Made by a program: the position numbers and the translations under genes. This document shows, one piece after another, positions 2,219 to 30,859 of a DNA stretch of 30,859 nt (within the stretch, counting starts at the first letter, position 1; every line of letters begins with the position of its first letter). The stretch comes from a virus. Location of the stretch: the IMG/VR virus record IMGVR_UViG_3300028844_002415, positions 1 to 30,859 of that record; one strand, 5' to 3'. The notes beneath the pieces were generated by a model. The model did not search any database, was not told where the DNA came from, and saw only the letters and a program-made list of their open reading frames with translations.

Positions 2219-5200
2219 TTGGGTATTATTCAAGTCGCTGGACCTCAAACGGGTAAGAATTATTCCATAAATATATCTGGTGATCAGCCTACAGAGACTG
2301 AACAGCAAAGAATAGATCAGTTTGTTGCCCAGAAAGAGCAAGCCTACGCGGATTTTTTATCTCGCTATGAAGCGCCTGTTATTGAAGAGGCAGAGGAAGA
2401 AGTTGAAGACCCCAAGGGTGGGTTTGTAAATGCTATGGGAGTTGGCCTCGACGCCCTGCAAGTTGCATATGGAAACACGCTCGAAAGAATAGGTGCCAAC
2501 ACAGGTATAGCTGGCCTACAGGATTACGGCACTAGCGTAATAGAGGCCAATGAACAGCAGATAGCAGAGAAATCAGAGGGGCTGACGCGCCGTGAAGACA
2601 TCGAAACCTTTGGCGATGCAGCGTCTTTCTTCTTTGAAACTCTAGGCCAACAAGTTCCACAACTTGGTGTAAGTTTAGGTGGCGCAGGAGCGGGAGCCTT
2701 GGCTGCGGCCCCTATCCCGATCCCCGGTGCTAGAGTTGTAGGTGGTTTGATTGGTGGTATAGCTGCAAACTATCCTTACTTCTTTGGTGATAACATTGCC
2801 GCGCAGAAGGATGCGATTGATCGTGGTCTGCGGGTAGAGATAGACGATAGTGCAGCGGCCCTTGCTGCTATCCCTCAGGCTGCTCTTGACAGTATTGTTG
2901 ACAGGCTTCTAGTCGGCAAGATTTTAAACCCATCTGTGATTAGAACGGGTGGCATCTTTACCAGAGCGGGCAAAGGTGTTGCGGCTGGTACGGTGGCTGA
3001 GGTTCCCACTGAGATAGGGCAAGAGGTAATCAATAGGTATCAAGCTGGTCTACCTATTGACGACGAAGAGGCATTTAAAGTTTACGAAGATGTCGCTATC
3101 GCTGCTGGTATCACAGGTGGTACTGTCAGAGGTGTTACTAATGTTGTTGGTGGGGATTACAGAAAAGAAAAAACGCGTAAGGACGAAGCTGAAAAGCTCA
3201 AGCAGTTAGATGATGATCAGGCTGAAGAGAAGGCTAGAGTTGTTGCCAACGTAGATCGTATCAAAGATGCACAGCAAAAAGAGACTGATGAAAGCCTGAT
3301 AGAGGGAAGAGATACATCTCCTATTCCAGCAGAGAGATCCTTAGCGGTACAGCCAGAAGAGACCAGCAGGCTTGAGCCACAAGAAGAGATCTCTCTTCTA
3401 GGTCAGGCGGCTAGAGAAGCCACGTTACCATATGTGCCAGTACCATTGTCGGCACTCCCCGTAAGAGAGCGTCAGGCTGTCAGGCAGTCTAGATATGCTC
3501 AGGGCATTGATACAGATACAGATGTTTCTGTTGATGAGATACGCCGTGTTGTAGGTGAAGAAGCTGCCATTAGGGAATCAGCCAAGCAGAAGCCAGTCAC
3601 TGGTGGAGACTCAAGATTCCAACCCATTGACAGTGAATTGTTTACGCAAGAGCAATATGACGCTGCTCTTGATAAGGTTAAATCTGAAAAAAGATATACT
3701 CAGCCGATTGCACAAGCAGGCATTCGCGCAAAGACTGGTCAAAAATCTGTACCTAACAGCCAAGTTCACGCCATTAGGGATGAAATGGTGCGCCGTGGAA
3801 TATTGCGTAAGGTTGACACGCGGATTGGCTATGAGGTTGAGCCTGATATTATATCATCTAATGATAGATTAGCCTCATATACAAAGACTTTATCTGACGT
3901 AAATAAAGAAATAGAAGGGCTTAAAGAGAGCAGAACGGGAGCGCTTGAAAGTGCCAGACGCATTGAGCAAGATCCCGCTCTTGACCTGACCCCCCGTCAG
4001 AGGGCACAGCAATCGCGTGAGTTGAAGCTGGAAGCAGATAACTTTGAGGCTCAGATTGCACAGGCAGAGCAGAATAAAACTGAGATAGAGAACAGAAGAA
4101 AGCAGGGGCCGACCGCATCTGTACTGCCCACGACTGAGACACCCAAGATCATTATGGGCACTGATCGTCTTGATCCCAACGCCTCATCATCTGAGCGCAT
4201 TGATGCGTTGAGAACAAGTATCGCTGGGTACGATGCTCAGATTGCAGAGCAGAAGAAAAACCTTGCCGCACTCAAGCGGCAGACAAAGAAGATCAATCTT
4301 CCAAAGTCTGATCAAGGACTGATAACTGAGATAGAGAAAGACATAGAGCGCAAGACTTACTTGCGTGAGGCCGCGCAGTCTAGGTTAGATAAACCATCTG
4401 CCCCAGTACAGGTGGCACCAGAGAAGACGCAGGCTGCTATCGCCCGTGAGGTTGCCAACAAGGCAGCGAATGCAAACAAGAGAGATGCATTTACACAGCG
4501 TCAATCAAACCTGATTGCCAGTCTAAGCAAGCGACTGAAGAGAATGGGTCTGTCAGATGTAAGGCTGATAGGTGAAAAGCTTATTGCCCCTGAGTTGCTT
4601 AAAGAAGGTAAGTTTGCTGAAGGAGTTTACACCGTTAAAGATGGCAACAAAATACTTGCCCTGTCTATGGAAGTGGTTGACCCAAGCAAATCAGTAGAAG
4701 AGCAATACAATGTTCTTAAAAGTGTGATGAACCATGAGGTGATACACGCACTCAAGAACCTTGGTCTGTTTACTGACGAAGAATATAACTCTCTGGTCAA
4801 AGCAGCTAAGTCTAGGAAGTATGTAGCCATCAAGGATGGTAAGCCAACTGAGCGTAAGTATACATACTTTGAGAGAGCAGAGGCCATGTATCAAGGCATG
4901 GGTCTGAACAACATAGGTATTGAAGAAGAGGCTGTAGCAGAACTCTTCCGTGACTATGCAGATGGCAAGATAAAACTAGCTGGCAGACCTAAGACCCTAT
5001 TCGAGCGCATCAAGAACTTCTTTACCTCTGTGTTCAAGGCCACCAAGGACGCAGGCTTTAATGATGTTGAGGATATATTTGAGAACGTAAGAAGCGGTGA
5101 GATTGGCAGAAGAGAGCGGGCCAAGACACCACTTGATAACCTAAAAGATCTGCAAGCACAGGCGCGTAGTGATGTAGACCAGCAGGCTCAAGCGTTCTCC

Positions 5201-8200
5201 TTGAAGACGTTCTATCCCAAGCTGCCCTTTGCACCTGAAGGCGTGAGGGCACACAACTTGCCCCACCAATTACTGGTTGAGGGTGATGGCACCCCACCAC
5301 AGGTTAAGATCACCAAGAAGTACACGCCAAAGAACGCAGCAGCAAACAATAGTTCAATTGAACAAATCATAGCGGAGCATCCTGATGCGCTGCTGTCAGA
5401 TGCCAAGTGGTTACAGGCCATGCAGGCCGCACTGGGTGGCGATTACCTACCAGCCCCACCCTTGGTGGGCATAGAATACTCTAAGTCTCCTGAGGCTATG
5501 GCTGAGAAGCTGAGACAGCTAACGCCTGAGCTACGCAAGGGTGTTGATGAGGGATTTAATTATGTAAACCAGATCCGTGACATCTACTACAGCGGTCAGG
5601 CAACTCCACGCATGACGATGGATCTGTTTGTATGGGGCATATTATCCCGTGGCGCAGGCCCAGTGCAGCAGGAAAGTGCATTCATCGACATCATAGACAG
5701 CGCATATCCAATACTAGAGAAGGCTACTCGCCAGCCCCTCAGCCCTGACGATGTGGACATGTGGATGAATGGTATATCCACCAAGCTTCCAGAAGGATCA
5801 CCGGGCAAACAAGTTACAATGAACGTCAATGCGGCAGGCAGATTAGTTAATGCCATGTCTCAGATGGTTGGCGATACCAACAGAACCGTGATTGATCTAA
5901 TTCATGAGGGCATGTCAGATCCAAACGTGCCAGCTTCTGATATCAGGCAGTTGTTCATGTCTGCAACTCAGGGAGCGGGGATCGACAACAAAGTTCTATC
6001 ATTCATCCTTCTGGTTGGTGGCAAGGATGATGTGCTTGTCATGGACAGGATACAAGGCCGCGCCCTTTGGGATGATGGTCGCTACGGCGGCGCAAATATC
6101 TACGATGGCATTGGCAAAAACAAAGAGGGCTTGTCTGCTATTGTGCGTGGCCCTGTTGGCAACCTTGTCACACGCTTACTTGAGAACGGTATGCGTAAGA
6201 ATGTTGAACGTGCCTACGAGTTGGTAGGTAGGCCACAGGACGCATCCTTAGGTCGTTGGCACTGGGAGACATGGGTCATTGAGGGTGAGCAGGTCGTAAG
6301 TCACGGCACCCTGCAAGCAGTCATCAATGGATCTCCGATTGGCACCTCTGTAACTGAGGGCAAGACAGATACATTCTCTTCAGGCATGACCTACATTCGC
6401 GGGGAGAATGCTACAGTCGTGGAATATCCTCTGTCTGATGGCACCTCTGTGTACATGTCACCGACACAGATGAAAGACTTTGAGGCGTACATAAGGAACG
6501 CCAAGAATGGTATTGTACCCAAGGGCTTTAAGGTTACGGAGAGGGCTGATATACCTTGGTACACCAGAGCAGAAGTAGACAGAGAAAAGCTAGATCAAGC
6601 AGCAAGGGAGTTTGAAAATGCGAAACCCAATGGATCAATTCTTAGACGCGATGAAAGGTCTGGAGAAGACAAGGACGCCTCTCGACGGGGAAACTCTCCC
6701 ATCGACAAAAGATATGGCAGCAACCCAGACATTCGATCCCAACAGGGAGGAGGTCGAAGAGGACGGGATCAGACAGGCATCCTTGCGCCGCTTGAAGGTG
6801 CGCCGACAGTCAGAGGCGCGTCAGGCCCAGACGAAAACTTAGTAGCTGTAGCAGAAAAGTATGCCCGTGATAACGGGATAGATCTGAAAAGACAGTCTGA
6901 GTTTGTTACTGTAGATGAAAGCCGTGCCACCCGCATAGCTCAAGCTTATGAGGAGATGGAGAATGCGCCTCAAGACCCAGTGGTTAAAGAGGCATACGAA
7001 AACCTTATTGTTCAAACTATAGATCAATACCGTGCGCTAGAAAATGCAGGGTATAAGTTCTGGTTTACTGACCTAAGCATACCTGACAACATAGAATATT
7101 TGTCTAGCCCTTGGAACGCGATGAGAGACATCCGCGCCAACAAGACTATGGGTATATTCCCTACGGATGAAGGCTTTGGGTCTAGTGATTTAGATGTGTC
7201 GAATAATCCAATGTTAATGGATACTGGGATTGAGTGGCCCTCTGGATCTCCAAACGGGCCAAAGAAAAAAGTTCTTGCGAATGACTTGTTCCGCGCTGTC
7301 CATGATGCCTTTGGTCATGGGCTTGAAGGCTCTGGTTTCCGCGCCCGTGGTGAAGAGAATGCATGGCAGGCACATGTGCGGTTGTTCACAGGTTCTGCCG
7401 TGGGTGCTATAACTTCAGAGACAAGAGGTCAAAATAGTTGGCTTAATTACGGCCCGTATGGAGAGCAGAATAGAAACGCTAAGGTAGAAGATACAGTCTT
7501 TGCGGATCAAAAAGTTGGCCTTATGCCAGCCTTCACATGGGAAGAAGGTAGGGCTGGTGATGCAGACATTTCTCCTGAACAAGAAAGTTCAATAGAACCT
7601 TCAGCAGAGGATGACTTACCATCAGGTGTGCGGGAGCAATTTAAATCAATTGTCGGAGACAGCACAGGACAGGAAGTAAATAAATTCTCTGTAGCTCCAT
7701 CAAATCCCAACCAATTGATAGCTTCCCCAAAGAAAAACAAAGATGGCAGCACATCTCCTATCTATGGATCTATGCTGGAGAATGGGGAGTTTATCCCCAT
7801 TGTCCTGAAAGCAGGCAACCATAAAGAGGTTAGAGGTTTTGCCCCAACGGGCACGGGCTTGTATCACATCCAACAACGTGGTCACGACAGAGAGCTTGAA
7901 AGGTTCTCCAGATATTACAAATCTGGCAAAGATATAAAACAAGCCATCTATGACACGCTTGTCAAGCTGAAGAACCAAAACTATCAGGATGGTGCCGACA
8001 TGCTTGTCACGCCTCAGGGTAGGAACCGTTTGGTTCTTGAGTGGCGTGAGAACATACCTTACAAATCACCACCCCTGACCTTAGTTCTTGAGAAGAAGCC
8101 ACTAGGCAGTGGCTCTGTCTATGAGGTGGTTACATTCTTCCCTGATCTGGAGAAGAAAAATCGTGCCGTTGTAGATGGTCGGACACGTTACAGCATTGTA

Positions 8201-11200
8201 TCGGCAGTGGACTCAGGTCAGTTGTTTGATCAGCAAGCACTGCAAGATGCGGCAAGACAGAACGATAAGTCACGGGAGATCCTGACTTACGTTTCCATCA
8301 ATGACTTCCTGAACGTAGCTGAAGAAGGAAGAGATGAGCGCAAAGAACAGGCTGTTAAGCAGCTTGTATCAGAGGGCACTAAGTTTAATTCAATCCCTTA
8401 TCTTGGCTTCATCAACAACGGCGATGGCACGGGCCAAGTCGTGGGTCATGAAGGTAGACACAGGGCGAGGGCACTAGCTGACCTTGGCTATGAAGATATG
8501 CCTGTCAGGATTGTTAGTGAGCAAGGTGGCAACGGGCCTTCAATCAGATGGGGTCAACAGGATGATCCATCAAACATGGACTATGTACCTGTAGATCAGA
8601 GACCAAACGTGCTGCTTGGTGAGACATCTGGTCAGATGGCTATGCCAGATCTCACCTTTAACAATGCACCCACTTCCAAGTACAGCGTTACCCAAACCAC
8701 TCCTGCCACCCAGCTTGCTAAGGATGTAAAGCAAAAAGAATACAACCTTAACTACGCGAAGGCTGCTGACTTCTTAGCCAAGCCATTCAACCTGTTTATG
8801 CCACGGGATGTAGCGCAGGAAAGAGCAGATGATATTCTGCGTAAGTTCCAAGACAGCATGCTGCCAGTAGGCAGAATGGTACAGGAGTTAAAGCAGGCTG
8901 GCCTCAAGATCACAGACGCTATGGACACCTACCTCAATGAGGAGTTGTTCCACCGCAAGACTGCCAATGAAGTGGAGAAGCGCCAGAACACAACCTATAA
9001 AGAAGCGGTTGAAGCAGGCAAGCAGATCAAAGCCACTGACGCCCAGATCAAAGACCTCAAAGCAAAGTCAGGTTTCTTCTCTCAGGCACTTGCCTCAAGC
9101 AACGCTGGCATGGCTATGGTGGATGCATATCTCTATGCTTCACACGCCAAAGAACGCAATGCTTACATAGAAGCAAACAAGGATGCCAATAACCCTGAGG
9201 GTTCAGGCATGTCCAATGATGAGGCTGACACTATCCTGCAATGGTTTGCGAACCTTGACAGCAATAGTATTGCTGCGGTTAGCAACTTAGATGCAGCAGT
9301 CAAAAACATTGTGGCTGACACTAACAGTCTTAGAGTTGATGCTGGGTTGATCCCCCGTGATTTTGTTGAGATAGAGGACGATGAGGGCAACCTAGTTCCT
9401 GCGCCAAACTATAGCAGCTATGTGCCCTTGCGTGGCATCTATGATCCAGAGAAGACAGATGATCTAGACTACACCCGTCCATCTATGCGCGGTGCATTTG
9501 GTGTGCGTGGGCGTGAGGACAGGAAGGCACGGGGCAGAACAGCAGATGTTGGATACGCCACAGACATCTTGGCTAACGTCATCAGCCAGAACCAGAACGC
9601 TGTTGTTCGCGGAGAAAGAAACAAGGTAGGTCAATCATTCTTAAAGCTCCTGCGTGGAGATGAGGAGACTGGCACCAGTCTTACCAGTGGCTACGCACAG
9701 ATCTTAGACAAGCTTCCCACTACCAGACGACAAGGAAGAGATGCTCAGGGCAGACCTATCATGGTCAATGTGCCAAACATCATGAAGCTTACGTCAGACC
9801 CTAGCGTGTTGGCTGTAAAGGAAGATGGTAAGGATGTCTTTGTCAGGATCTATGACCCCCGCATAGCCCAAGCTATGAAGGGTGCCACTGGTCTGGGTGA
9901 TTCAAGTCAAAGCACAATTTTGCGCGGCATGACAAAGTTCAACAGACTTCTGTCGAACATCAATACATCATACAACCCAGAGTTCCTTATCACGAACATG
10001 CTGCGAGATCTTCAGACCGCTGGCGTCAACATCAATCAGTATGATGAGAAGGGTCTGACATCTTCTATTCTCAAGGGTCTGGCACCAGCCTTGAGAGGGA
10101 TTAAGAACTCTATCAGAGATAACGACAACAGTTCTAAGTGGGCTAAAATATACAGAGACTTTGTTGATGCTGGTGGTAAGAACGCAACCAACCAAATGAA
10201 TACAGTTGCTGATGAGATGGAAAATCTTACAAAGCTTTTGTCTGAGATTGGTGACGCTGGTTCTGCGGGCAAGTGGGGTTTGGTCAAGAACAAATTCCTT
10301 GGCAAAGGTAAGTCTCTTCTACAGTTCATGGAAGACTACAACACTATTGTGGAGAACGGCATTCGTGTATCCACATACCAGTCTCTGCTAGACAAGGGCT
10401 TCACCCGTGAGAGGGCAGCACAGGCGGCAGGGAATGTCACTGTGAACTTCTCTAAGGGTGGCGAGTACAAGGGCCTAATGAATGCCATGTACTTATTCTA
10501 CAACGCATCACTTCAAGGCTCATTCGCTATGCTGAATGCGGCGGTTAGATCCAAGCGGGTTCAGAAGATATGGATGTATGTTGTGGCGGCGGGCGTCCTG
10601 CAAGATCAACTCAATGCGGCACTGTCTGAAGAGGATGAGGATGGCAAGCTGGTATACGACAAGATACCACCGTACTTGCTGGAGCATAACATAATATTAC
10701 CTGATCCATTTGGATTGGTGGAGCGTCCATATATCAAGATCCCAATGCCATATGGTTTGAACATGGCACACAATCTAGGCAGGGCTATGAGTCAAGTTGC
10801 TCGCGGCGGTGAGTCCGTCAGTGATGCAGCGAACTCAATCGTTGGTACAATTGTTGATACACTCAGCCCCATAGGCGGCATATATGAAGAGGGCGTTGTG
10901 GATGCAGTGGCTCCTACAATTGCTGATCCGTTCATTGACATCTTTAGAAATAAAAACTTTGCCAACAATCCTATCTATAAAGAAGGGTTCCCCGGTGAAA
11001 GAACGCCTGCAAGCCAACAGTATTGGTCAACCACATCACCATCTGCCAAGTGGATTGCTAGTAATCTAAACTCTTTGACGGGTGGTACTGCCGCAACCAA
11101 AGGCCTTGTTGATATATCTCCAGACGTAATGGAATACTGGTTTGAGTTCTTAACTGGTGGCGTTGGTCGCTTTGTGCAGAGAACAGCAGAACTTCCAGCG

Positions 11201-11596
11201 CGGGTCTATGAGGATGGCCTGACTGAGGATCTGATAGGTGAGGTGCCGTTTGTCAGGAAAGTTATTGGCAGCGTTACTGATCGTCAGGATCTTGGCACCT
11301 ACATTGAAAAGCGTGATAGAGTTCTCAGGGCCTTTGATGAAATCAGGGATGCATCTAAAAAGCAGGATGCACCTAGACTTGCAAAAGCAAGGCAGAATTA
11401 TTCTGAAGAGATCAAATACATTCAGCTTGTAAGGAACATAGAGAATGCACGGCGCAAGTTAAGTCAGCAGATAAATGCTGTGAGAGACAATGAGCGCCTC
11501 TCTGATGAGCGTAAGCAGGAGTTGCTTGATACCCTAGAGGATCGACGCAATGCCATAGTCCTACGGGCCTCTAAGCTGATGAAAGATTTTAAATAG
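2219..11596 (+). CDS. giant polyvalent/internal virion protein (3125 aa) with metallopeptidase-like, ParB-like and LPD38-like regions
   Basis: The start is TTG at 2219, six bases after AGGAG (2208-2212); no upstream ATG is possible. Seen in order: Gly/Ala-rich hydrophobic segments at residues about 150-195, suitable for membrane insertion; long coiled coils (about 320-350, 560-640, 660-740); an HEVIH zinc-metallopeptidase motif (H839, E840, H843) with a downstream EEEAVAELF helix (902-910) that could give the third ligand; a helical domain at about 1045-1320; a VHDAFGHG motif (H1695, H1700); a region at about 1858-1960 with HIQQRGH (1883-1889) recalling phage barnase/EndoU-like domains; GHEGRHRA (2076-2083) typical of ParB-like/DdrB domains; and about 2575-2810 resembling LPD38 (NFSKGGEYKG, FYNASLQGS). 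Phage large polyvalent proteins are thought to enter the host with the DNA and counter defence. The domain names are from memory; zinc and ParB motifs are directly visible. Confidence 0.8.
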   Translation: MGIIQVAGPQTGKNYSINISGDQPTETEQQRIDQFVAQKEQAYADFLSRYEAPVIEEAEEEVEDPKGGFVNAMGVGLDALQVAYGNTLERIGANTGIAGLQDYGTSVIEANEQQIAEKSEGLTRREDIETFGDAASFFFETLGQQVPQLGVSLGGAGAGALAAAPIPIPGARVVGGLIGGIAANYPYFFGDNIAAQKDAIDRGLRVEIDDSAAALAAIPQAALDSIVDRLLVGKILNPSVIRTGGIFTRAGKGVAAGTVAEVPTEIGQEVINRYQAGLPIDDEEAFKVYEDVAIAAGITGGTVRGVTNVVGGDYRKEKTRKDEAEKLKQLDDDQAEEKARVVANVDRIKDAQQKETDESLIEGRDTSPIPAERSLAVQPEETSRLEPQEEISLLGQAAREATLPYVPVPLSALPVRERQAVRQSRYAQGIDTDTDVSVDEIRRVVGEEAAIRESAKQKPVTGGDSRFQPIDSELFTQEQYDAALDKVKSEKRYTQPIAQAGIRAKTGQKSVPNSQVHAIRDEMVRRGILRKVDTRIGYEVEPDIISSNDRLASYTKTLSDVNKEIEGLKESRTGALESARRIEQDPALDLTPRQRAQQSRELKLEADNFEAQIAQAEQNKTEIENRRKQGPTASVLPTTETPKIIMGTDRLDPNASSSERIDALRTSIAGYDAQIAEQKKNLAALKRQTKKINLPKSDQGLITEIEKDIERKTYLREAAQSRLDKPSAPVQVAPEKTQAAIAREVANKAANANKRDAFTQRQSNLIASLSKRLKRMGLSDVRLIGEKLIAPELLKEGKFAEGVYTVKDGNKILALSMEVVDPSKSVEEQYNVLKSVMNHEVIHALKNLGLFTDEEYNSLVKAAKSRKYVAIKDGKPTERKYTYFERAEAMYQGMGLNNIGIEEEAVAELFRDYADGKIKLAGRPKTLFERIKNFFTSVFKATKDAGFNDVEDIFENVRSGEIGRRERAKTPLDNLKDLQAQARSDVDQQAQAFSLKTFYPKLPFAPEGVRAHNLPHQLLVEGDGTPPQVKITKKYTPKNAAANNSSIEQIIAEHPDALLSDAKWLQAMQAALGGDYLPAPPLVGIEYSKSPEAMAEKLRQLTPELRKGVDEGFNYVNQIRDIYYSGQATPRMTMDLFVWGILSRGAGPVQQESAFIDIIDSAYPILEKATRQPLSPDDVDMWMNGISTKLPEGSPGKQVTMNVNAAGRLVNAMSQMVGDTNRTVIDLIHEGMSDPNVPASDIRQLFMSATQGAGIDNKVLSFILLVGGKDDVLVMDRIQGRALWDDGRYGGANIYDGIGKNKEGLSAIVRGPVGNLVTRLLENGMRKNVERAYELVGRPQDASLGRWHWETWVIEGEQVVSHGTLQAVINGSPIGTSVTEGKTDTFSSGMTYIRGENATVVEYPLSDGTSVYMSPTQMKDFEAYIRNAKNGIVPKGFKVTERADIPWYTRAEVDREKLDQAAREFENAKPNGSILRRDERSGEDKDASRRGNSPIDKRYGSNPDIRSQQGGGRRGRDQTGILAPLEGAPTVRGASGPDENLVAVAEKYARDNGIDLKRQSEFVTVDESRATRIAQAYEEMENAPQDPVVKEAYENLIVQTIDQYRALENAGYKFWFTDLSIPDNIEYLSSPWNAMRDIRANKTMGIFPTDEGFGSSDLDVSNNPMLMDTGIEWPSGSPNGPKKKVLANDLFRAVHDAFGHGLEGSGFRARGEENAWQAHVRLFTGSAVGAITSETRGQNSWLNYGPYGEQNRNAKVEDTVFADQKVGLMPAFTWEEGRAGDADISPEQESSIEPSAEDDLPSGVREQFKSIVGDSTGQEVNKFSVAPSNPNQLIASPKKNKDGSTSPIYGSMLENGEFIPIVLKAGNHKEVRGFAPTGTGLYHIQQRGHDRELERFSRYYKSGKDIKQAIYDTLVKLKNQNYQDGADMLVTPQGRNRLVLEWRENIPYKSPPLTLVLEKKPLGSGSVYEVVTFFPDLEKKNRAVVDGRTRYSIVSAVDSGQLFDQQALQDAARQNDKSREILTYVSINDFLNVAEEGRDERKEQAVKQLVSEGTKFNSIPYLGFINNGDGTGQVVGHEGRHRARALADLGYEDMPVRIVSEQGGNGPSIRWGQQDDPSNMDYVPVDQRPNVLLGETSGQMAMPDLTFNNAPTSKYSVTQTTPATQLAKDVKQKEYNLNYAKAADFLAKPFNLFMPRDVAQERADDILRKFQDSMLPVGRMVQELKQAGLKITDAMDTYLNEELFHRKTANEVEKRQNTTYKEAVEAGKQIKATDAQIKDLKAKSGFFSQALASSNAGMAMVDAYLYASHAKERNAYIEANKDANNPEGSGMSNDEADTILQWFANLDSNSIAAVSNLDAAVKNIVADTNSLRVDAGLIPRDFVEIEDDEGNLVPAPNYSSYVPLRGIYDPEKTDDLDYTRPSMRGAFGVRGREDRKARGRTADVGYATDILANVISQNQNAVVRGERNKVGQSFLKLLRGDEETGTSLTSGYAQILDKLPTTRRQGRDAQGRPIMVNVPNIMKLTSDPSVLAVKEDGKDVFVRIYDPRIAQAMKGATGLGDSSQSTILRGMTKFNRLLSNINTSYNPEFLITNMLRDLQTAGVNINQYDEKGLTSSILKGLAPALRGIKNSIRDNDNSSKWAKIYRDFVDAGGKNATNQMNTVADEMENLTKLLSEIGDAGSAGKWGLVKNKFLGKGKSLLQFMEDYNTIVENGIRVSTYQSLLDKGFTRERAAQAAGNVTVNFSKGGEYKGLMNAMYLFYNASLQGSFAMLNAAVRSKRVQKIWMYVVAAGVLQDQLNAALSEEDEDGKLVYDKIPPYLLEHNIILPDPFGLVERPYIKIPMPYGLNMAHNLGRAMSQVARGGESVSDAANSIVGTIVDTLSPIGGIYEEGVVDAVAPTIADPFIDIFRNKNFANNPIYKEGFPGERTPASQQYWSTTSPSAKWIASNLNSLTGGTAATKGLVDISPDVMEYWFEFLTGGVGRFVQRTAELPARVYEDGLTEDLIGEVPFVRKVIGSVTDRQDLGTYIEKRDRVLRAFDEIRDASKKQDAPRLAKARQNYSEEIKYIQLVRNIENARRKLSQQINAVRDNERLSDERKQELLDTLEDRRNAIVLRASKLMKDFK

Positions 11597-17487: not shown

Positions 17488-19251
17488 GTGGAAGTCGAAC
17501 AAAAAGTTCGCGGCGAGGCTTACAGATTAGGTAATGGACAACACAAAATAACATGCCCAAGCTGTGGCCCCAGCCGCAAAAAGAAAACAGACAGAACGCT
17601 ATCACTCCGCATCGACAATGAAAAAATACTATTCAACTGCTGGCATTGCAGCATGAATGGCATTGTACCTTTGCGTGAGAAGATGCCAATAAATTCAGAG
17701 CAAAGGGTAAGTCATATGTCGATTGCGACACACGTTAAAGATGATCCGCTTTCAGACAATGCAGTACAGTGGTTGCAGACGCGAGGCATATCTCAAGCGA
17801 CTGCGGAAGGCGCAGGAATAAAAACAACAAAGAAATATATCAGGGCTGCGGGTGCAGAAGTTGAGTGCATCACGTTCCCATATAAGAACCAAGGCCAAGA
17901 GTACGCATACAAAATCAGGGCGCTTGCGACCAAGGGATTTTCATGCAGCGGGGCACCTCAAACATTCTTCAATGGTGACAATGTTGATGGCTCATCAACA
18001 GTAATCATATGTGAGGGTGAGATGGACGCGCTTTCATTTATGGAAGCAGGTATGACCAATGTGGTATCCATACCAAACGGGGCACCAGAAAAAGTATCTG
18101 TCCAAGAAGTTGATCCAGAGAACGACAACAAGTTTCAGTTCCTTTGGAAAGCAAAGGACATGCTGGAAGCAGCAGACAAGATCATCATTGCCACTGATAA
18201 TGACAAGGCAGGCACCGCTGCTGCGGAAGAAATGGCGCGGCGTATCGGGAAGGATAAGTGCTGGAAGTTTGAGTACCCAGAGGACTGCAAGGATGCTAAC
18301 GATATCCTTGTCACTTACGGTGTTGACGCACTGCAAGAAATAACAGGGTATGCCAAGCCGTGGCCTGTGGCTGGACTGTTTGATGCAGAACATTTTTATG
18401 ATGAGGTTGATGAGATATACCAGCGCGGTATGGGCCGTGGCGAAAGCACTGGCTATGACAACGTGGATGATTACTACACGATAGCTGGCGGGCAACTTAC
18501 CATTGTTACTGGGCACCCATCATCAGGAAAGTCTGAGTTCATTGACCAGATCATGGTAAATATGGCAAGCGAGAACCAATGGAAGTTTGCGATATGCTCT
18601 TTCGAGAATGAGCCTAGACTACACATTGCCAAGCTGATTAGTAAATATTTGGGCAAGCCTTTCTTCGATGGCATCACGCCACGCATGACAAAGGATGAAT
18701 TAAATGCTGGCAAAAAATTTGTTCAATCGAACTTTTCATTTTTATACCAAGCTGACGGGTCACTGTCTTCTGTTGACAGCATACTTGAAAGGTTAAAGGT
18801 GGCGGTGCTGCGTCATGGTATCAACGGTGCCGTGATAGACCCGTATAATTATCTTGAGAAGAACAGAGACAGCAGTGAGACTGACTGGATCTCTGAGATA
18901 CTGACGCGCTTCAGGGTGTTTGCTCAAGCGCATGACATTCACATCTGGTTCGTGGCACACCCAACAAAGATGATGCGTAATGACAAAGGCGTAGTGCCAG
19001 TGCCTAAAGGGTATGACATCTCAGGATCTGCTGCATGGTTTGCTAAGGCAGATGTCGGCCTGTCTGTTCACAGGCCTGACCCTGCGTTCTCACCTATCAG
19101 TGAGGTGCATGTCTGGAAGTGCAGGTTCTCTTGGATTGGGAAGCAGGGCAGTGCAGAGCTAGAGTTCGATGTACCAACGTCATCGTACCGTAAGGTTCAG
19201 CCTGATGCTTTTGTAACACAGTCACAAAGTTTGTCTGATGAGTTCTTTTAA
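17488..19251 (+). CDS. bifunctional primase-helicase (T7 gp4-like)
   Basis: A 587-residue replication protein. The start is GTG 17488 with AGGAG eight bases upstream. An N-terminal zinc ribbon (C23, C26, C51, C54) is followed by a TOPRIM primase core with CEGEMDAL (E177) and the TDNDKAG acidic pair (D237, D239). The C-terminal RecA-like helicase has Walker A GHPSSGKSE (342-350), a motif-2-like acidic step at AVIDPYNYL (D451), and VAHPTKM (H491). The order and length match T7 gp4 and bacterial DnaB-type phage primase-helicases: it primes lagging strands and unwinds the fork as a hexamer. No DNA polymerase is in the window, so the partner is either host-encoded or outside. A strong terminator follows. 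Confidence 0.92.
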   Translation: MEVEQKVRGEAYRLGNGQHKITCPSCGPSRKKKTDRTLSLRIDNEKILFNCWHCSMNGIVPLREKMPINSEQRVSHMSIATHVKDDPLSDNAVQWLQTRGISQATAEGAGIKTTKKYIRAAGAEVECITFPYKNQGQEYAYKIRALATKGFSCSGAPQTFFNGDNVDGSSTVIICEGEMDALSFMEAGMTNVVSIPNGAPEKVSVQEVDPENDNKFQFLWKAKDMLEAADKIIIATDNDKAGTAAAEEMARRIGKDKCWKFEYPEDCKDANDILVTYGVDALQEITGYAKPWPVAGLFDAEHFYDEVDEIYQRGMGRGESTGYDNVDDYYTIAGGQLTIVTGHPSSGKSEFIDQIMVNMASENQWKFAICSFENEPRLHIAKLISKYLGKPFFDGITPRMTKDELNAGKKFVQSNFSFLYQADGSLSSVDSILERLKVAVLRHGINGAVIDPYNYLEKNRDSSETDWISEILTRFRVFAQAHDIHIWFVAHPTKMMRNDKGVVPVPKGYDISGSAAWFAKADVGLSVHRPDPAFSPISEVHVWKCRFSWIGKQGSAELEFDVPTSSYRKVQPDAFVTQSQSLSDEFF

Positions 19252-19442: not shown

Positions 19443-20078
19443 TTACGGATTATAATCAGCATTTAAATCCGTTTTTGGGTAGGGTAGAATTTTATATCGC
19501 AAGCACTTAATCAAATCCCTGCGCCGTTTCTTTTTGGCGTTGAAGAATACATACCTATGCTTGCGTGGGCGATCTACATAGTACACATTCTCTGCACCAT
19601 ACTTGTCGCGTATCTGCTGCATGTTCATGCCGTGTGCGTAAGTCGTGTGGTGCTGATGCTCCAAGCCCTTGACCTTTGGGTCTTTGAACTTTGATGACAG
19701 CCCGCAATAAAAAAAGTTTGATGCTTGATATATGGTTCCAACATGCCCGACAGATATCTCAGCAAAGGTCACGATGATTTCTTTATCAACCATCTTGAGT
19801 GAACCGCTTATCAAAAAGCTTGCTGCATTCTTGGGGGCATCATCCTCTGTCCACAATCTTGTTAGCTCATAGACATTATCTGCATGCTCATCCCCACAAA
19901 CTCCACGCCGTAGGGTTGTTGATCCGCTTACACCGTAAGTCACTATGCCTATCATCACCTCTCCATCAAACAGGCCAAAGGCCATGCTAATAGGTGGCAC
20001 CCTGTGCATGTAATGGCGGTCTATGATGAAGGGAAGCGCGCTGCGGCGTGTGATGGGTCTTACCTCAAGTCCAATCAT
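19443..20078 (-). CDS. Mom-like DNA-modification acyltransferase
   Basis: A 211-residue GNAT-fold-like protein. The stretch ELTRLWTEDDAPKNAASFLI (71-90), then IIVTFAEISVGHVGTIYQA (101-119) and NFFYCGLSS (121-129), is the pattern of phage Mu Mom-family proteins, which convert adenine in DNA to an N6-carbamoylmethyl form and protect the genome from many restriction enzymes. The basic C-terminus (PRKHRYVFF, AKKKRRRD) could contact DNA. ATG 20078 overlaps the stop of the Fis-like gene (ATGA) and has AAGGGG. It is distal in a long operon. In Mu, mom needs a companion activator (Com); no Com homologue is next to it, but a Fis-like protein is. Family assignment is from memory of the motif pattern. 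Confidence 0.7.
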   Translation of the reverse strand: MIGLEVRPITRRSALPFIIDRHYMHRVPPISMAFGLFDGEVMIGIVTYGVSGSTTLRRGVCGDEHADNVYELTRLWTEDDAPKNAASFLISGSLKMVDKEIIVTFAEISVGHVGTIYQASNFFYCGLSSKFKDPKVKGLEHQHHTTYAHGMNMQQIRDKYGAENVYYVDRPRKHRYVFFNAKKKRRRDLIKCLRYKILPYPKTDLNADYNP

Positions 20079-20360: not shown

Positions 20361-20387
20361 AAAAAAAAATGACGGGGCACAGCCCCG
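20361..20387 (-). terminator. hairpin plus nine Ts directly before the Fis/Mom pair
   Basis: On the - strand CGGGGC (20387-20382), loop TGT, GCCCCG (20378-20373), then TCA and nine Ts (20369-20361). The T-run touches the GGAG of the Fis-like gene, leaving no room for a promoter between terminator and gene. Confidence 0.8.
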
Positions 20388-20395
20388 CCAGTTTA

Positions 20396-26569: not shown

Positions 26570-26627
26570 GATTTTCTCCTGTTTCATGATGTTAACATTG
26601 CAGCCCCGTAGGGCCGCAAACTTAGCA

Positions 26628-27062: not shown

Positions 27063-27094
27063 TGGGTTCTCCTTTGTGGCTTGTGGATTTAAGT

Positions 27095-27114
27095 ATGCAG
27101 CACGAATGCTGCAT
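27095..27114 (-). other. perfect intergenic hairpin
   Basis: ATGCAGCA and TGCTGCAT around the tetraloop CGAA, eight pairs, between the 27123-27389 and 26628-27062 genes. No T-run. Confidence 0.75.
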
Positions 27115-27122
27115 GTTTAAAT

Positions 27123-27389
27123 TCACGCTGCGTTGAGGTAAGACATGTGTCTCTGGCCCCGTTCCAACCATTGCTGGTCATCATAAAAGCTGGGGTTCGC
27201 TTCGTTAAACCACTTGTCCAAGTGCATCAGAACGTGGCCGTGGCTGGGTGCGTTCCAGCCCGCCCTGTATTTTTGGATGTTGGTGGTCATCATTTTCATG
27301 AACTGATTGCCCTCATAGCCGTTGCCAGCTTTGAATGACCGTTGTGCCTGAGCGAATGAAGCGTAAGCATTTTCTAAGTGTCTGTTCAT
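27123..27389 (-). CDS. first gene of the long leftward operon, unknown function (88 aa)
   Basis: A helical, aromatic- and His-rich protein (LENAYASFAQAQRSFKAGNG, then GHVLMHLDKWFNEA). CTGGAGAG supports ATG 27389. It is the first gene after the 680-bp non-coding block, so it may be among the earliest expressed. Hairpin AAGCAGCACC/GGTGCTGCTT (27422-27443) lies directly upstream. Confidence 0.72.
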   Translation of the reverse strand: MNRHLENAYASFAQAQRSFKAGNGYEGNQFMKMMTTNIQKYRAGWNAPSHGHVLMHLDKWFNEANPSFYDDQQWLERGQRHMSYLNAA

Positions 27390-27421
27390 AGTTTCTCTCC
27401 AGTTGAGTTATTAAGCCATTC

Positions 27422-27443
27422 AAGCAGCACCGTGGTGCTGCTT
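27422..27443 (-). other. perfect hairpin in the 5' leader of the leftward operon
   Basis: AAGCAGCAC and GTGCTGCTT pair around CGTG, nine pairs, 33 bases before ATG 27389. Confidence 0.75.
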
Positions 27444-27479
27444 ACAAAGCCAAATCACTCTGTGGGGTTCAAAGCGTCA

Positions 27480-27840
27480 CTACTACTGCAAGCTGGTGTT
27501 CTCTACATTCAACCGCCTCGCTAGCCCGTTTCCCAGTGGCGGCACTCGCAGCGTTTACGTTAGTCTCTGAATTATCCCACGATCACAGGGTTTACGTTTA
27601 AGATCCTCTTTGGCTGAGCGTGTCAGGTCACAGTACATCGTGTGCAGAGGGGTGGAGGCCCTGCAAATCATCCCATTTACCAACTACCTTCTATATGAAG
27701 GGCGGGTGACCTTGCGGTCAGGGAAGCTACCTTGGGGGCTATTGCCCTTGGGGGGTCTCCCCAGTCTGGAATAATCGCCAGTCCGATGTTTGCGGGGGTT
27801 GTGAGTGTCAGGCACTGCGTTGCCCCCCCGCCGTTTGGAT
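27480..27840. other. non-coding block with many nested hairpins (structured RNA or packaging site)
   Basis: No frame here has a credible start or ribosome binding site. Inverted repeats: CCGCC (27513) with GGCGG (27538); a multi-branch unit closed by AGGTCAC (27625-27631) and GTGACCT (27706-27712) and enclosing GCAG-GG/CCCTGC (27644-27664) and CCTTC-TATAT-GAAGG (27687-27701); GGGC-TATT-GCCC (27736-27747); GGGG-TCT-CCCC (27752-27762); and GCGGGGG (27792-27798) with CCCCCGC (27825-27831) enclosing AGTG/CACT (27804-27816). GTTTACGTT occurs twice (27553, 27590), 37 bp apart. The block sits ahead of terS, so a packaging site or a transcribed structured RNA are both possible. Confidence 0.55.
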
Positions 27841-27879
27841 CTTCCTTATACACGTTCTATCAGGAGCTACAACCCCTAA

Positions 27880-27907
27880 TTTACACTATGGTTCATTATT
27901 TTACACT
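27880..27907 (+). promoter_or_regulatory. candidate promoter ahead of terS
   Basis: TTTACA (27880-27885) and TACACT (27902-27907) are 16 bases apart; TTTACACTAT is repeated directly at 27880 and 27900, so paired protein sites are an alternative. Confidence 0.4.
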
Positions 27908-27959
27908 ATACCATATAAACAAGGGGTATCGTGACAAGACGCATCTGCTGCGCTACAAT

Positions 27960-27976
27960 GGTGCAATAGAACTTTT
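27960..27976 (+). promoter_or_regulatory. variant copy of the dispersed palindrome ahead of terS
   Basis: GGTGCAATAGAACTTTT: the right arm and TTTT match, the left arm has GTGC for GTTC. It lies between the candidate promoter and terS. Confidence 0.45.
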
Positions 27977-28072
27977 GACAAGCAGCGTGTCATTTTGCAG
28001 GGGTGATTTGCTGAGAAACAGTGACAGCTACAGTGGGGGTGTAATAATACCCCATCATGGAAAGGGCCATAT

Positions 28073-28600
28073 ATGACTGAGAAAAACGCCGATACCAAGC
28101 GCAGCGCCAAGCTTACTGTGATCACCAACAAGGGGGGGAAGCCGTACAAGCAAACAGTCAAGACTGCCAGAAGATCCAATGGCCTCACAGACAAGCAGGA
28201 GGCCTTCGCTCAGGCGGTGTTTGATGGCAGCAATTTTAGTGAAGCGTACAGGCTGGCATATGATGCACAGAACATGAGTCCAGCAAGCATACACCAAGAG
28301 GCCTATCAGCTAGTCACAAGCCCTAAGGTGGCCCTGAGGCTAGAAGAGCTTGATAGGGTGAGGGTTAAGCAGCAAAGCATGCAGGCGCTCTCTAGATCAG
28401 AGAAGGTGATAAAAAAACTGGAGGATATTGGGCTGGGTGATGATCAGGGCGGCACTGCTCAGATCAGGGCGCTGGAGTTGCTGGGCAAATCCATCGGGCT
28501 GTTCAAGGACGTTGTGGAAACAGAGGACAAGACTGAACGCAACGCCGACACGATCAAGGCAGAGCTAGAGCAGAAGTTGCAGCGCATGCTGGGCGGCTGA
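28073..28600 (+). CDS. terS: terminase small subunit
   Basis: A 175-residue protein with a basic N-terminal tail (KRSAKLTVITNKGGKP), a helix-turn-helix starting GLTDKQEAFAQAVFDGSNFS (about 36-55) with EAYRLAY, central helices, and a C-terminal segment (IRALELLGKSIGLFKD) common to small terminase subunits. It should recognise the packaging site and recruit the large subunit. AAGGG lies seven bases before ATG 28073. The large subunit gene follows 540 bp later, unusually separated by an opposing small gene and an AT-rich gap. Confidence 0.85.
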   Translation: MTEKNADTKRSAKLTVITNKGGKPYKQTVKTARRSNGLTDKQEAFAQAVFDGSNFSEAYRLAYDAQNMSPASIHQEAYQLVTSPKVALRLEELDRVRVKQQSMQALSRSEKVIKKLEDIGLGDDQGGTAQIRALELLGKSIGLFKDVVETEDKTERNADTIKAELEQKLQRMLGG

Positions 28601-28602
28601 AA

Positions 28603-28619
28603 GGTTCACTTGAACTTTT
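28603..28619 (+). promoter_or_regulatory. GTTC-N4-GAAC-TTTT palindrome after terS
   Basis: GGTTCACTTGAACTTTT begins three bases after the terS stop, in the same orientation as the gene. Confidence 0.55.
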
Positions 28620-28682
28620 CAAACGTCTGGCTGGCTGGAATGCATCCGCTCACGTTTTATATTTAGAAGGAACGCGCGAGAA

Positions 28683-28705
28683 CCCCCACCCACCCCCACC
28701 CCCCC
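28683..28705 (-). other. G-quadruplex motif
   Basis: The + strand has C5-A-C3-A-C5-A-C7, so the - strand carries four G-runs of 7, 5, 3 and 5 bases with one-base T loops, a compact intramolecular G-quadruplex pattern. Confidence 0.8.
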
Positions 28706-28711
28706 GCAGAG

Positions 28712-28740
28712 GCGCACACGCACACACACGCGTATACATG
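28712..28740. other. 29-nt alternating purine/pyrimidine tract (Z-DNA prone)
   Basis: Strict purine-pyrimidine alternation through GCGCACACGCACACACACGC and then GTATACATG, six bases after the G-quadruplex motif. Confidence 0.7.
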
Positions 28741-28769
28741 ATGTTCCACACAAACAATTACAAAAGGTT

Positions 28770-29003
28770 TTAATAATTCCCTCTCTCCCTGTATCGTGTG
28801 AGTACTTCCCTGTAGTATGGAAACACCTCTAGCTCTCGCTGAGAGATCCACTGAGTGCTGCTTTCTTCTTTTGGTATATCTACCCACCCTAGATGTAGTT
28901 TACCCATCAGGTAAGCCACATGTCTGTACATTGTTGTTCTATCTGGGAGTGCCTCGACGTAACTGTTTACGTCATCAAGCAATTCTTCTTCTGCAATCTT
29001 CAT
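28770..29003 (-). CDS. small protein between terS and terL, opposite strand (77 aa)
   Basis: An acidic helical protein (LLDDVNSYVEALPDRTTMYR, then GKLHLGWVDIPKEES) with no recognised family. AGGGGTGGGGGT before ATG 29003 is a possible ribosome binding site. It lies opposite both terminase genes and separates them. It could be a late regulator; the reading frame is sound but the role is unknown. Confidence 0.6.
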   Translation of the reverse strand: MKIAEEELLDDVNSYVEALPDRTTMYRHVAYLMGKLHLGWVDIPKEESSTQWISQRELEVFPYYREVLTRYRERGNY

Positions 29004-29009
29004 ACCCCC

Positions 29010-29142
29010 ACCCCTATAATATATAGATACATTATTGGTAGTATATCAGATAGAATTACATTAATCTTAATACTATTAGATATCTATAAGTATATATTCC
29101 GTAGTAATATATATATTATATATATATTATATATAGGGGGTT
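29010..29142. promoter_or_regulatory. AT-rich divergent promoter region before terL
   Basis: About 130 bp of nearly pure A/T with TATAAT at 29015-29020, AGATATCT and the 19-bp AT element (29119-29137) shared with 17381-17399. It sits between divergent starts, so promoters both ways are expected; exact -35 boxes are not clear. Confidence 0.5.
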
Positions 29143-29148
29143 TTGAAA

Positions 29149-30654
29149 TTGCAACTGTCAAAGATCAAGAGCAAGCTGAATACTCTGCCCATTGAACAGC
29201 AAGCAGAGCTTCTTGACCTGATTAAAGAGCTTGAAGAGGTGCAGAACAAATCTGCGGCTAAGGATGACTTCATATCCTTTGTGAATATGATGTGGCCTAG
29301 CTTCATTAGTGGCAGGCACCACAAGGAGATGGCAGATGCCTTTGAGCGTGTGGCAAAGGGGGAGCTAAAACGTCTGATTATCAACATGCCACCCCGTCAT
29401 ACCAAGTCAGAGTTCGCATCATACCTTCTTCCTGCATGGTTTCTTGGTAAATATCCTGAAAAGAAAGTCATTCAAACGGCACACACAGCAGAACTGGCTG
29501 TAGGATTTGGACGTAAAGTCCGTAACCTGATTCAGTCTGAGGATTTTCAGAAGGTATTTAGCGGAATTAGTCTATCATCCGACTCAAAGGCTGCTGGTCG
29601 GTGGAATACCAACAAGCGAGGTGACTACTTTGCTATCGGTGTAGGTGGTGCTGTGACTGGTAAGGGTGCTGATCTGCTAATTATTGACGATCCGCACTCA
29701 GAACAGGACGCTCAACAGGGACAATTCAACCCAGAAGTCTATGATCGTGTGTATGAATGGTACACATCTGGCCCACGCCAGCGATTACAGCCCGGTGGTG
29801 CCATCATTGTCGTGATGACGCGGTGGTCTTTGCGGGATCTTACTGGTCAGATCCTTAAATCCACAGGTAATCGCAAGGGAATGGACGAATGGGAAGTGAT
29901 TGAGTTCCCTGCCATACTACCTTCTGGCACCCCCCTGTGGCCTGAGTTCTGGTCAAAGGAAGAGCTTGGTGCCCTAGAGGCAGAACTGCCATCATCCAAG
30001 TGGAATGCCCAGTATCAACAGAACCCCACCTCTGAAGAGGGGGCACTTATCAAGCGTGAGTGGTGGAGAGAATGGGATAATCCTAATCCACCACCATGTG
30101 AGATCATATTACAGTCTTGGGACACCGCATTTCTCAAGACACAGCGATCTGACTACAGTGCCTGCACTACATGGGGCGTATTCTACCACCCAGATGAGAA
30201 TGGTAAGAGCCAACCCAACCTAATACTTCTAGATGCGTTCAAGGAAAAGCTTGAGTTCCCAGAGTTGAAACGTGCTGCGTATGACAAGTACCTTGAGTTT
30301 GACCCAGACCAATTGATCGTGGAGAAGAAAGCTTCTGGTGCCCCTCTTATATTTGAGCTTAGGGCTATGGGTATGGCTGTCACTGAGTTCACCCCCTCAC
30401 GGGGTCAGGACAAGATAGCAAGAGTAAACGCGGTAACAGATCTATTCTCCAGTGGTTCCATCTGGCACCCACCCACCAAGTGGGCAGAAGATGTGATAGA
30501 GGAATGCGCTGCATTCCCGTCAGGAGAGCATGATGATTTCGTTGACTCCACATCACAGGCACTCCTGAGGTTTAGGCAGGGGGGATGGGTCAGGGCTGAG
30601 TCAGATGATTGGGATGATGAACCTAAGTATCAGCGTCCTGTAGAGTATTATTAA
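29149..30654 (+). CDS. terL: terminase large subunit
   Basis: About 500 residues; the start is TTG. TTG 29149 is eight bases after AGGGGG and preferred; TTG 29143 is only two bases after it. Numbering from 29143: an N-terminal helical tail, ATPase Walker A NMPPRHTKSE (81-90), Walker B LLIIDDP (178-184), a coupling TRWS (226-229), then the RNaseH-like nuclease with SWDTA (D327), VEKKASG (E394) and EHDDFVDS (D464, D465, D468). The subunit pumps DNA into the prohead and cuts it. The motif set is complete. Family style resembles terminases of T7-like and marine podoviruses. Confidence 0.93.
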   Translation: MQLSKIKSKLNTLPIEQQAELLDLIKELEEVQNKSAAKDDFISFVNMMWPSFISGRHHKEMADAFERVAKGELKRLIINMPPRHTKSEFASYLLPAWFLGKYPEKKVIQTAHTAELAVGFGRKVRNLIQSEDFQKVFSGISLSSDSKAAGRWNTNKRGDYFAIGVGGAVTGKGADLLIIDDPHSEQDAQQGQFNPEVYDRVYEWYTSGPRQRLQPGGAIIVVMTRWSLRDLTGQILKSTGNRKGMDEWEVIEFPAILPSGTPLWPEFWSKEELGALEAELPSSKWNAQYQQNPTSEEGALIKREWWREWDNPNPPPCEIILQSWDTAFLKTQRSDYSACTTWGVFYHPDENGKSQPNLILLDAFKEKLEFPELKRAAYDKYLEFDPDQLIVEKKASGAPLIFELRAMGMAVTEFTPSRGQDKIARVNAVTDLFSSGSIWHPPTKWAEDVIEECAAFPSGEHDDFVDSTSQALLRFRQGGWVRAESDDWDDEPKYQRPVEYY

Positions 30655-30670
30655 AAGTTCTATTGAACTA
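30653..30670 (-). promoter_or_regulatory. GTTC-N4-GAAC-TTTT palindrome at a convergent gene junction
   Basis: On the - strand TAGTTCAATAGAACTTTT: TAG is the stop of the right-edge gene. On the + strand it touches the terL stop. Confidence 0.6.
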
Positions 30671-30859
30671 AACCTCTATATTTATCTTAGTTCCTTGGGG
30701 TCGATCTGCATTAGTCTTGCGACCAAAGCGGTCATAAGCTTCTCCCAAGTCAAACCTTTGCTTTGCTAATGCCTCTAGGTGGCTGTGATTGGCCCTGTGT
30801 TCTTTCTCAACCATCTGTTCTTTTAGGTGAGCCTCTATTCGCTCACGACTTTGAGTTTG
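30668..30859 (-). CDS. partial gene running off the right edge
   Basis: An open frame of 63 codons plus TAG continues past the window edge. The visible C-terminal part is charged and helical (SRERIEAHLKEQMVEKEHRA, later EAYDRFGRKTNAD), coiled-coil-like with no recognised family. It converges with terL, and the two stops are 14 bp apart across the palindrome. Confidence 0.65.
   Translation of the reverse strand, partial: QTQSRERIEAHLKEQMVEKEHRANHSHLEALAKQRFDLGEAYDRFGRKTNADRPQGTKINIEV

Follow-up and report, generated by a model that had tools for sequence, protein, structure and literature searches.

Locus and sequence-only reading

The window, i.e., the whole 30,859-nt stretch of DNA analysed here, is the IMG/VR virus fragment IMGVR_UViG_3300028844_002415. 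In this fragment, terS and an operon transcribed leftward diverge from a non-coding interval that contains a cluster of inverted repeats and, as described below, a structured RNA which we denote RNA-A (Table 1). Elsewhere in the window, a single open reading frame of 3125 codons, the start codon of which is uncertain, occupies positions 2219-11596 on the plus strand, and a Mom-family DNA modification gene (Pfam PF25680, E 4.9e-42) is found at positions 19443-20078.

A sequence-only reading of positions 27480-27840 had described a dense block of hairpins without a credible gene and proposed either a structured RNA or a packaging (cos/pac) site. The inverted repeats it named are present, including, on the plus strand, GCGGGGG (27792-27798)/CCCCCGC (27825-27831) and the seven-pair stem CTGCAAG (27486-27492)/CTCGCAG (27545-27551), the interior of which is branched. 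The absence of a gene also holds: across relatives, the longest open stretch in the six frames of the core spans 36-51 codons, and single-base indels disrupt every frame. However, the implied exceptional density of hairpins does not withstand comparison with shuffled sequences. The z-score of the minimum free energy (MFE) is +0.44 on the plus strand and -0.44 on the minus strand for positions 27480-27850, and ranges from -0.1 to -0.3 for the exact RNA against dinucleotide shuffles. Because folding energy is no better than that of dinucleotide shuffles on either strand, hairpin density alone is no evidence of function; it is the conservation and covariation among relatives, invisible to a reader of one sequence, that identify the structure as real. 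The cluster itself was thus correctly spotted, whereas its limits shift to 27462-27838, with a promoter reaching to 27872, and the feature is assigned to the minus strand.

Table 1 Coordinates of RNA-A, its parts and its neighbours in the window
Feature	Position	Strand	Remarks
terS (Terminase_2)	28073..28600	+	Neighbour of RNA-A; divergent transcription
-35 hexamer TTGTAG	27867..27872	-	TTTACA, TTGACA or TAGACA in relatives
-10 hexamer TATAAG	27845..27850	-	CATAAG, TAGATA, AATAAG and similar in relatives
RNA-A, structured RNA, ~377 nt (about 380)	27462..27838	-	5' end predicted from promoter; 3' end set at the end of helix P1
H1, 5'-domain hairpin GCGGGGGGGCAACG...CUCACAACCCCCGC	27792..27831	-	Nested GCGGGGG/CCCCCGC stem of the sequence-only reading
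H3, hairpin GGGC-AAUA-GCCC	27736..27747	-	Middle pair A-U, G-C or C-G in relatives
Hairpin GACC-GCAA-GGUC, GNRA tetraloop	27708..27719	-	GCAA or GCGA in relatives; minus strand only
Conserved 3' core	27462..27580	-	Closed by P1 and P2
P1	27576-27580 with 27462-27466	-	GUGGG/CCCAC; elsewhere GCGC/GCGC or GUGC/GCAC
P2	27565-27571 with 27468-27474	-	UUCAGAG/CUUUGAA; elsewhere AUUUCUGC/GCAGAGAU or GAGGC/GCCUC
P3, CUGCGAG/CUUGCAG	27545-27551 with 27486-27492	-	Seven-pair closing stem of the sequence-only reading
P4, CCGCC/GGCGG and ACUGG/CUAGC, GA bulge	27513..27542	-	C-G to A-U in L117; G-C to A-U at the inner pair
P5, small hairpin UGU-AGAGA-ACA	27497..27507	-	Loop nearly invariant
Perfect hairpin AAGCAGCACC-AC-GGUGCUGCUU	27422..27443	-	Between RNA and first gene; no U-tract
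First gene of leftward operon, 88 aa	27123..27389	-	Without family match; varies among relatives while RNA stays

RNA-A is conserved in uncultured marine phages

Searches of viral contigs with the TerS and TerL sequences yielded 18 and 80 loci, respectively. In local blastn alignments, the segment 27455-27593 is 80-89% identical over 99-176 bp, whereas the TerS proteins of the same loci are 47-58% identical, so that conservation is higher in this non-coding DNA than in the gene beside it. Matches to two conserved 18-20-mers were found in 34 and 36 viral stretches, from which 26 distinct sequences were obtained. In all 25 distinct loci with sufficient flanking sequence, the block is located 440-700 bp upstream of terS, in divergent orientation, and in the 26 loci RNA-A is found always at the 5' end of the operon, never elsewhere. 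An exact-pattern search of 84,980 bacterial and archaeal species genomes returned no match to RNA-A, nor did a covariance-model search of cultured relatives; blastn against cultured phages produced nothing meaningful, the lone hit being a chance match of 43 bp in Erwinia, outside the core. Two isolate contigs (L124 and L126) that match one of the 18-mers were rejected as chance matches, since the second conserved motif is absent from them and the covariance model does not recognize them.

The window and ten related loci contain no match to any of the 4227 Rfam models at the gathering score, the GOLLD and ROOL models included; a search relaxed to E up to 10 over positions 27300-28150 found nothing, and a tRNA/tmRNA search of the window was likewise negative. 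We found no description of RNA-A in the literature searched; the 2017 catalogue of 224 candidate RNAs lies outside this comparison. RNA-A is thus a new family, not in Rfam, among the large structured phage RNAs (GOLLD, ROOL, Flavobacterium-1), and comes from uncultured marine phages. Like RNA-A, GOLLD and ROOL are large, structured orphan RNAs of phages; however, they often occur near tRNA islands, whereas RNA-A is smaller and adjoins no tRNA genes.

Covariation supports a fold on the minus strand

The covariation analysis of homologues that had been suggested from the sequence alone uncovered compensatory changes. It was performed on 22 distinct sequences aligned with MAFFT from sequence only, with no structure used. 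Within the core, 92.5% of the alignment cells in the 22 sequences are paired, compared to 84.3% in shuffles, and 51 cells are double-changed, compared to 17.8 in shuffles, although these cells come from related sequences and are not independent events. The covariation score of the core is 0.263, against 0.119 for shuffles and 0.013-0.080 when slid. When core pairs are read as minus strand, G-U outnumbers A-C 74 to 14, and hence pairing is standard on the minus but not on the plus strand. Consistently, the RNAalifold energy of the core is -58.6 kcal/mol on the minus strand versus -41.4 kcal/mol on the plus strand, and several hairpins of the 5' domain are capped by GNRA loops on the minus strand only (GACC-GCAA/GCGA-GGUC, GCC-GCAA-GGC). 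The alifold energy of the 5' domain aligned alone does not favour the minus strand (-23.4 versus -26.3 kcal/mol on the plus strand), so that the strand assignment derives from the promoter, the GNRA loops and the data on the core.

RNA-A is composed of a swappable multi-hairpin 5' domain, with GNRA loops on some of the hairpins, and a rigid 3' core (P1-P5) of high conservation, which the covariance model R1 finds in the window at E 5e-41. In the 5' domain, the inner arm of H1 is AGUG/CACU in some relatives and GAGG/CCUC in others, and H3 is paired in 100% of cases with 9 double-changed cells, versus 2.5 in shuffles. In the core, P3 is paired in 96.1% of the alignment cells, and P4 conforms across relatives to CCGCC/GGYGG followed by CUGR/YYAG above the GA bulge, with changes from C-G to A-U in L117 and from G-C to A-U at the inner pair. 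Many unpaired positions of the core are invariant (GUAAACGC, GUAGAGAA and GUAGUAGUGACGC). The core contains one-base indels and no conserved frame, which argues against a protein-coding gene, a candidate that was considered and rejected. On comparative sequence evidence, the hairpin block is a structured RNA of the minus strand with a real fold; of the two possibilities raised initially, it is the structured RNA that minus-strand covariation and the conserved promoter bear out, and, as had also been remarked, this RNA belongs to no recognizable family, with no Rfam, tRNA or tmRNA counterpart.

Promoter and organization of the predicted leader

Sequences that resemble a sigma-70-type promoter, identified by consensus matches only, directly precede the RNA in the aligned relatives, with a spacer that is 16 nt long in the window and almost always 17 nt in the relatives. 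When a range of 220 nt was scanned without bias, the same site was selected in most sequences; in six (L098, L104, L109, L115, L117 and L023), another site had an equal or higher score. Upstream of the -35 hexamer, at positions 27877-27909, are two direct repeats of TTTACACTAT, 20 bp apart, which are possibly activator sites; repeats of other sequence occupy this place in relatives. Further upstream, the plus-strand sequence ATAAACAAGGGGTATCGTGACAA (27914-27938), which may serve the divergent promoter region as a regulatory site, is kept also in many relatives without RNA-A. The near-palindrome AAAGTTCAATTGAACTTT, which is operator- or terminator-like, recurs in intergenic regions (27966-27985, 28604-28622 and 30654-30672) and is found near terS in relatives too.

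Downstream of P1, the order is about 20-45 nt, a variable hairpin, the ribosome-binding site (RBS) and the first leftward gene, the identity of which varies from phage to phage. All relatives have an analogous hairpin, of a sequence different from that in the window, ahead of the first gene, and no U-tract terminator was found between the RNA and this gene. A strong minus-strand terminator lies far downstream (20370-20390), which fits a leader and a free RNA alike. The transcript of RNA-A may extend past P1 into the operon. Loci that share an RNA carry unrelated first genes and, conversely, a single first-gene family is found next to different RNAs; inspection by eye revealed no apparent coupling of the RNA to the first downstream gene. 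RNA-A heads the leftward operon and is not a leader of terS. Its nearness to terS is explained by the divergent promoter region, from which the RNA would be transcribed away from terS as the leader of the leftward operon. As a separate observation, strong hairpins are located just upstream of the RBS of successive leftward genes, at 26592-26616, 27086-27113 and 27422-27443.

Unrelated RNAs are exchanged in the same genomic slot

In covariance-model searches, RNA-A was absent from many relatives in which terS, terL and the gene order are homologous. In these phages, the equivalent interval contains a promoter of the same kind and other conserved sequences. One of these, RNA-B, occupies the slot in eight loci (L005, L010, L013, L018, L063, L062, L048 and L051) and displays 22 pairs with compensatory changes in a minus-strand model, the two strands being tied in alifold energy; another, RNA-C, is found in three (L047, L071 and L078). 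Loci L047 and L048 are 99.7-99.8% identical over the flanking 6.0 and 3.5 kb, but differ in the middle of the RNA, where L047 carries RNA-C (6116-6262, 147 nt) and L048 carries RNA-B (6007-6261, about 255 nt); as judged from these alignments, the difference is a recent cassette swap. In L068, the 5' half of RNA-A is retained and the 3' half is unrelated. The L047/L048 difference and the half-replacement in L068 indicate that the interval is mosaic and exchanged between genomes. That unrelated RNAs replace one another at a single slot is more surprising than the new family itself.

A further candidate occupant was recognized among cultured phages, the nearest of which, by TerL identity, are phage 023Pt_psg01 (58%) and the pelagiphages HTVC027P (55.6%) and HTVC023P (50%). 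HTVC023P shares the order of leftward gene, 546-bp gap and terS, and the gap folds below shuffles on the minus strand (z about -2.4). In HTVC027P, terS sits inside the leftward block, and a divergent gap of 549 bp with an MFE z-score of -4.2 to -5.5 lies upstream of the leftward genes gp34/gp33, with TTGACA-17-TATATA at its right end, close to record position 18195 (L128 ~3700). On the leftward strand of this gap we identified the Rfam family Flavobacterium-1 (RF02976) with 90.2 bits (cut-off 58.9; L128, 3256-3376, minus strand). Flavobacterium-1 resembles RNA-A in being a structured RNA of marine phages from the same broad group, and in HTVC027P it, too, heads a leftward operon, on the leader strand. 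Nevertheless, its helix plan differs, there is no match to RNA-A in sequence or by covariance model, and neither the RF02976 model nor its GGCGUaCAaAUC...GCaUUUCCCUGuACgU core was detected in the window or the RNA-A loci. A 22-mer of Flavobacterium-1 occurs in 91 viral-contig stretches and in one of the 84,980 species genomes, the lone bacterial match (L223) being a Flavobacterium single-cell scaffold that encodes TerS (73.5%), gp33 (87%) and gp34 (67%) of HTVC027P. Given that this scaffold bears phage genes, Flavobacterium-1 is in effect a marine phage RNA and the family name is misleading. The place of Flavobacterium-1 relative to terS varies, the two being several kb apart in some contigs, in either orientation, and its equivalence to the RNA-A slot is therefore one of layout, not of strict synteny.

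We tentatively suggest, with somewhat more doubt than confidence, that in this broad group of marine phages, which are podovirus-like and related to the HTVC023P-type pelagiphages, the place of the 5' leader is an exchangeable RNA slot, in which at least four mutually unrelated large structured RNAs (RNA-A, RNA-B, RNA-C and Flavobacterium-1), swapped by recombination as whole or half cassettes, would perform one job with different folds. Plausibly, these RNAs would dock on the RNA polymerase or another part of the machinery of the host, or would distinguish self from non-self among competing phages. Such phages spend 300-500 bp of their compact genomes on a putative leader RNA, the slot of which changes occupant between genomes, and the Rfam orphan Flavobacterium-1 fits the same context, as a phage RNA. 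Since HTVC027P carries such an RNA and RNA-seq of its infection has been published, the function of large phage leader RNAs becomes testable.

Possible functions of RNA-A

The put RNA of phage HK022 is short, comprising two hairpins. By itself, put RNA is reported to suppress both pausing and termination during early transcription (PMC9378689). If RNA-A likewise heads an early transcript of host RNA polymerase, it would be analogous in role to put RNA, and could be a minus-strand leader with an effect in cis on how the early/replication operon is transcribed, a proposal that we favour while giving equal weight to belief and doubt. Host sigma-70 RNA polymerase would start RNA-A at the promoter between terS and the leftward operon, which would make it the 5' leader of this operon; no conserved terminator intervenes before the first gene, the RBS of which follows the extra hairpin; and the folded nascent leader would act in cis on the host polymerase as an antiterminator. 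The comparisons establish the RNA structure and its strand, the promoter position, the synteny, the independence from the first gene and the replacement by unrelated RNAs at one place, whereas transcription itself, cis action and antitermination are what we infer. HTVC027P encodes no RNA polymerase and uses the host enzyme throughout infection (PMC12753301); early-operon timing for the RNA-A loci is only suggested, by the high expression of HTVC027P gp33/gp34 at 6-9 h (PMC12753301). Against the put-like leader, RNA-A is far larger than put and bears no sequence relation to it, its single-sequence folding energy does not surpass that of shuffles, and the fact that unrelated RNAs can take its place would suit a function in trans, or simple protection of the 5' end, equally well.

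Nearly as likely, albeit itself rather doubtful, is the main rival, namely that RNA-A is a trans-acting non-coding RNA, produced early, processed or free, which would bind a host or phage factor (cf. GOLLD, ROOL and Flavobacterium-1). Such a role would account for the invariant unpaired positions of the 3' core, for the maintenance of the RNA while the downstream gene changes and for the tail hairpin that the RNA has of its own ahead of this gene; furthermore, the RNA in the sister slot of HTVC027P, Flavobacterium-1, is classified in Rfam as an sRNA gene. However, there is neither a terminator nor a conserved processing site before the operon, and the position at the operon 5' end is invariable in 26 loci.

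It is improbable that RNA-A is a cis-acting 5' UTR element of another kind, i.e., a translational regulator, a ligand sensor or a shield against RNases, even though it sits immediately ahead of the RBS of the first gene and, in relatives, the outer stem of the last hairpin is long. Pure shielding would leave the unpaired sequence free to vary, and a riboswitch dedicated to one gene is disfavoured, since the same RNA precedes changing first genes and a single first-gene family is combined with different RNAs.

The packaging site proposed in the sequence-only reading, where TerS would recognize the block to initiate packaging (cos/pac), now appears very unlikely. The block does contain many inverted repeats 235-600 bp upstream of terS, but a packaging site would be expected in all phages that share the terminase, whereas in many relatives there is no such block although terS, terL and the gene order are retained. 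Moreover, the block covaries as RNA, its compensatory changes obeying the rules of RNA pairing, with G-U allowed and A-C not. A far better candidate for a cos/packaging site lies on the other side of terS, between terS and terL at about 28683-28770, where a non-coding, C-rich bipartite motif, ACCCCCACCYACCCCC-N-CCCCCC, about 25-30 nt and ATACATGATGTTCCACACAAACAATTA, is recognizable in all aligned relatives, whichever RNA they carry. The pRNA of phi29 is a structured phage RNA encoded near packaging functions. To our knowledge, phi29-type motors operate without the TerS/TerL pair, which is present in the window; the phi29 pRNA covariance model has no match in the window, and RNA-A is lost or replaced while the terminase stays.

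Least likely of all, to the point of being negligible, is that the block encodes a plus-strand RNA, serves as a leader of terS or contains a short protein gene: a plus-strand frame of ~45 codons spans the core in the window, but even among close relatives the frame is shifted by single-base indels at hairpin loops, the plus-strand alifold of the core is much weaker and the promoter points left.

Beyond the candidate packaging site, a self-complementary AT-rich stretch (29090-29140) lies directly upstream of terL and recurs in relatives.
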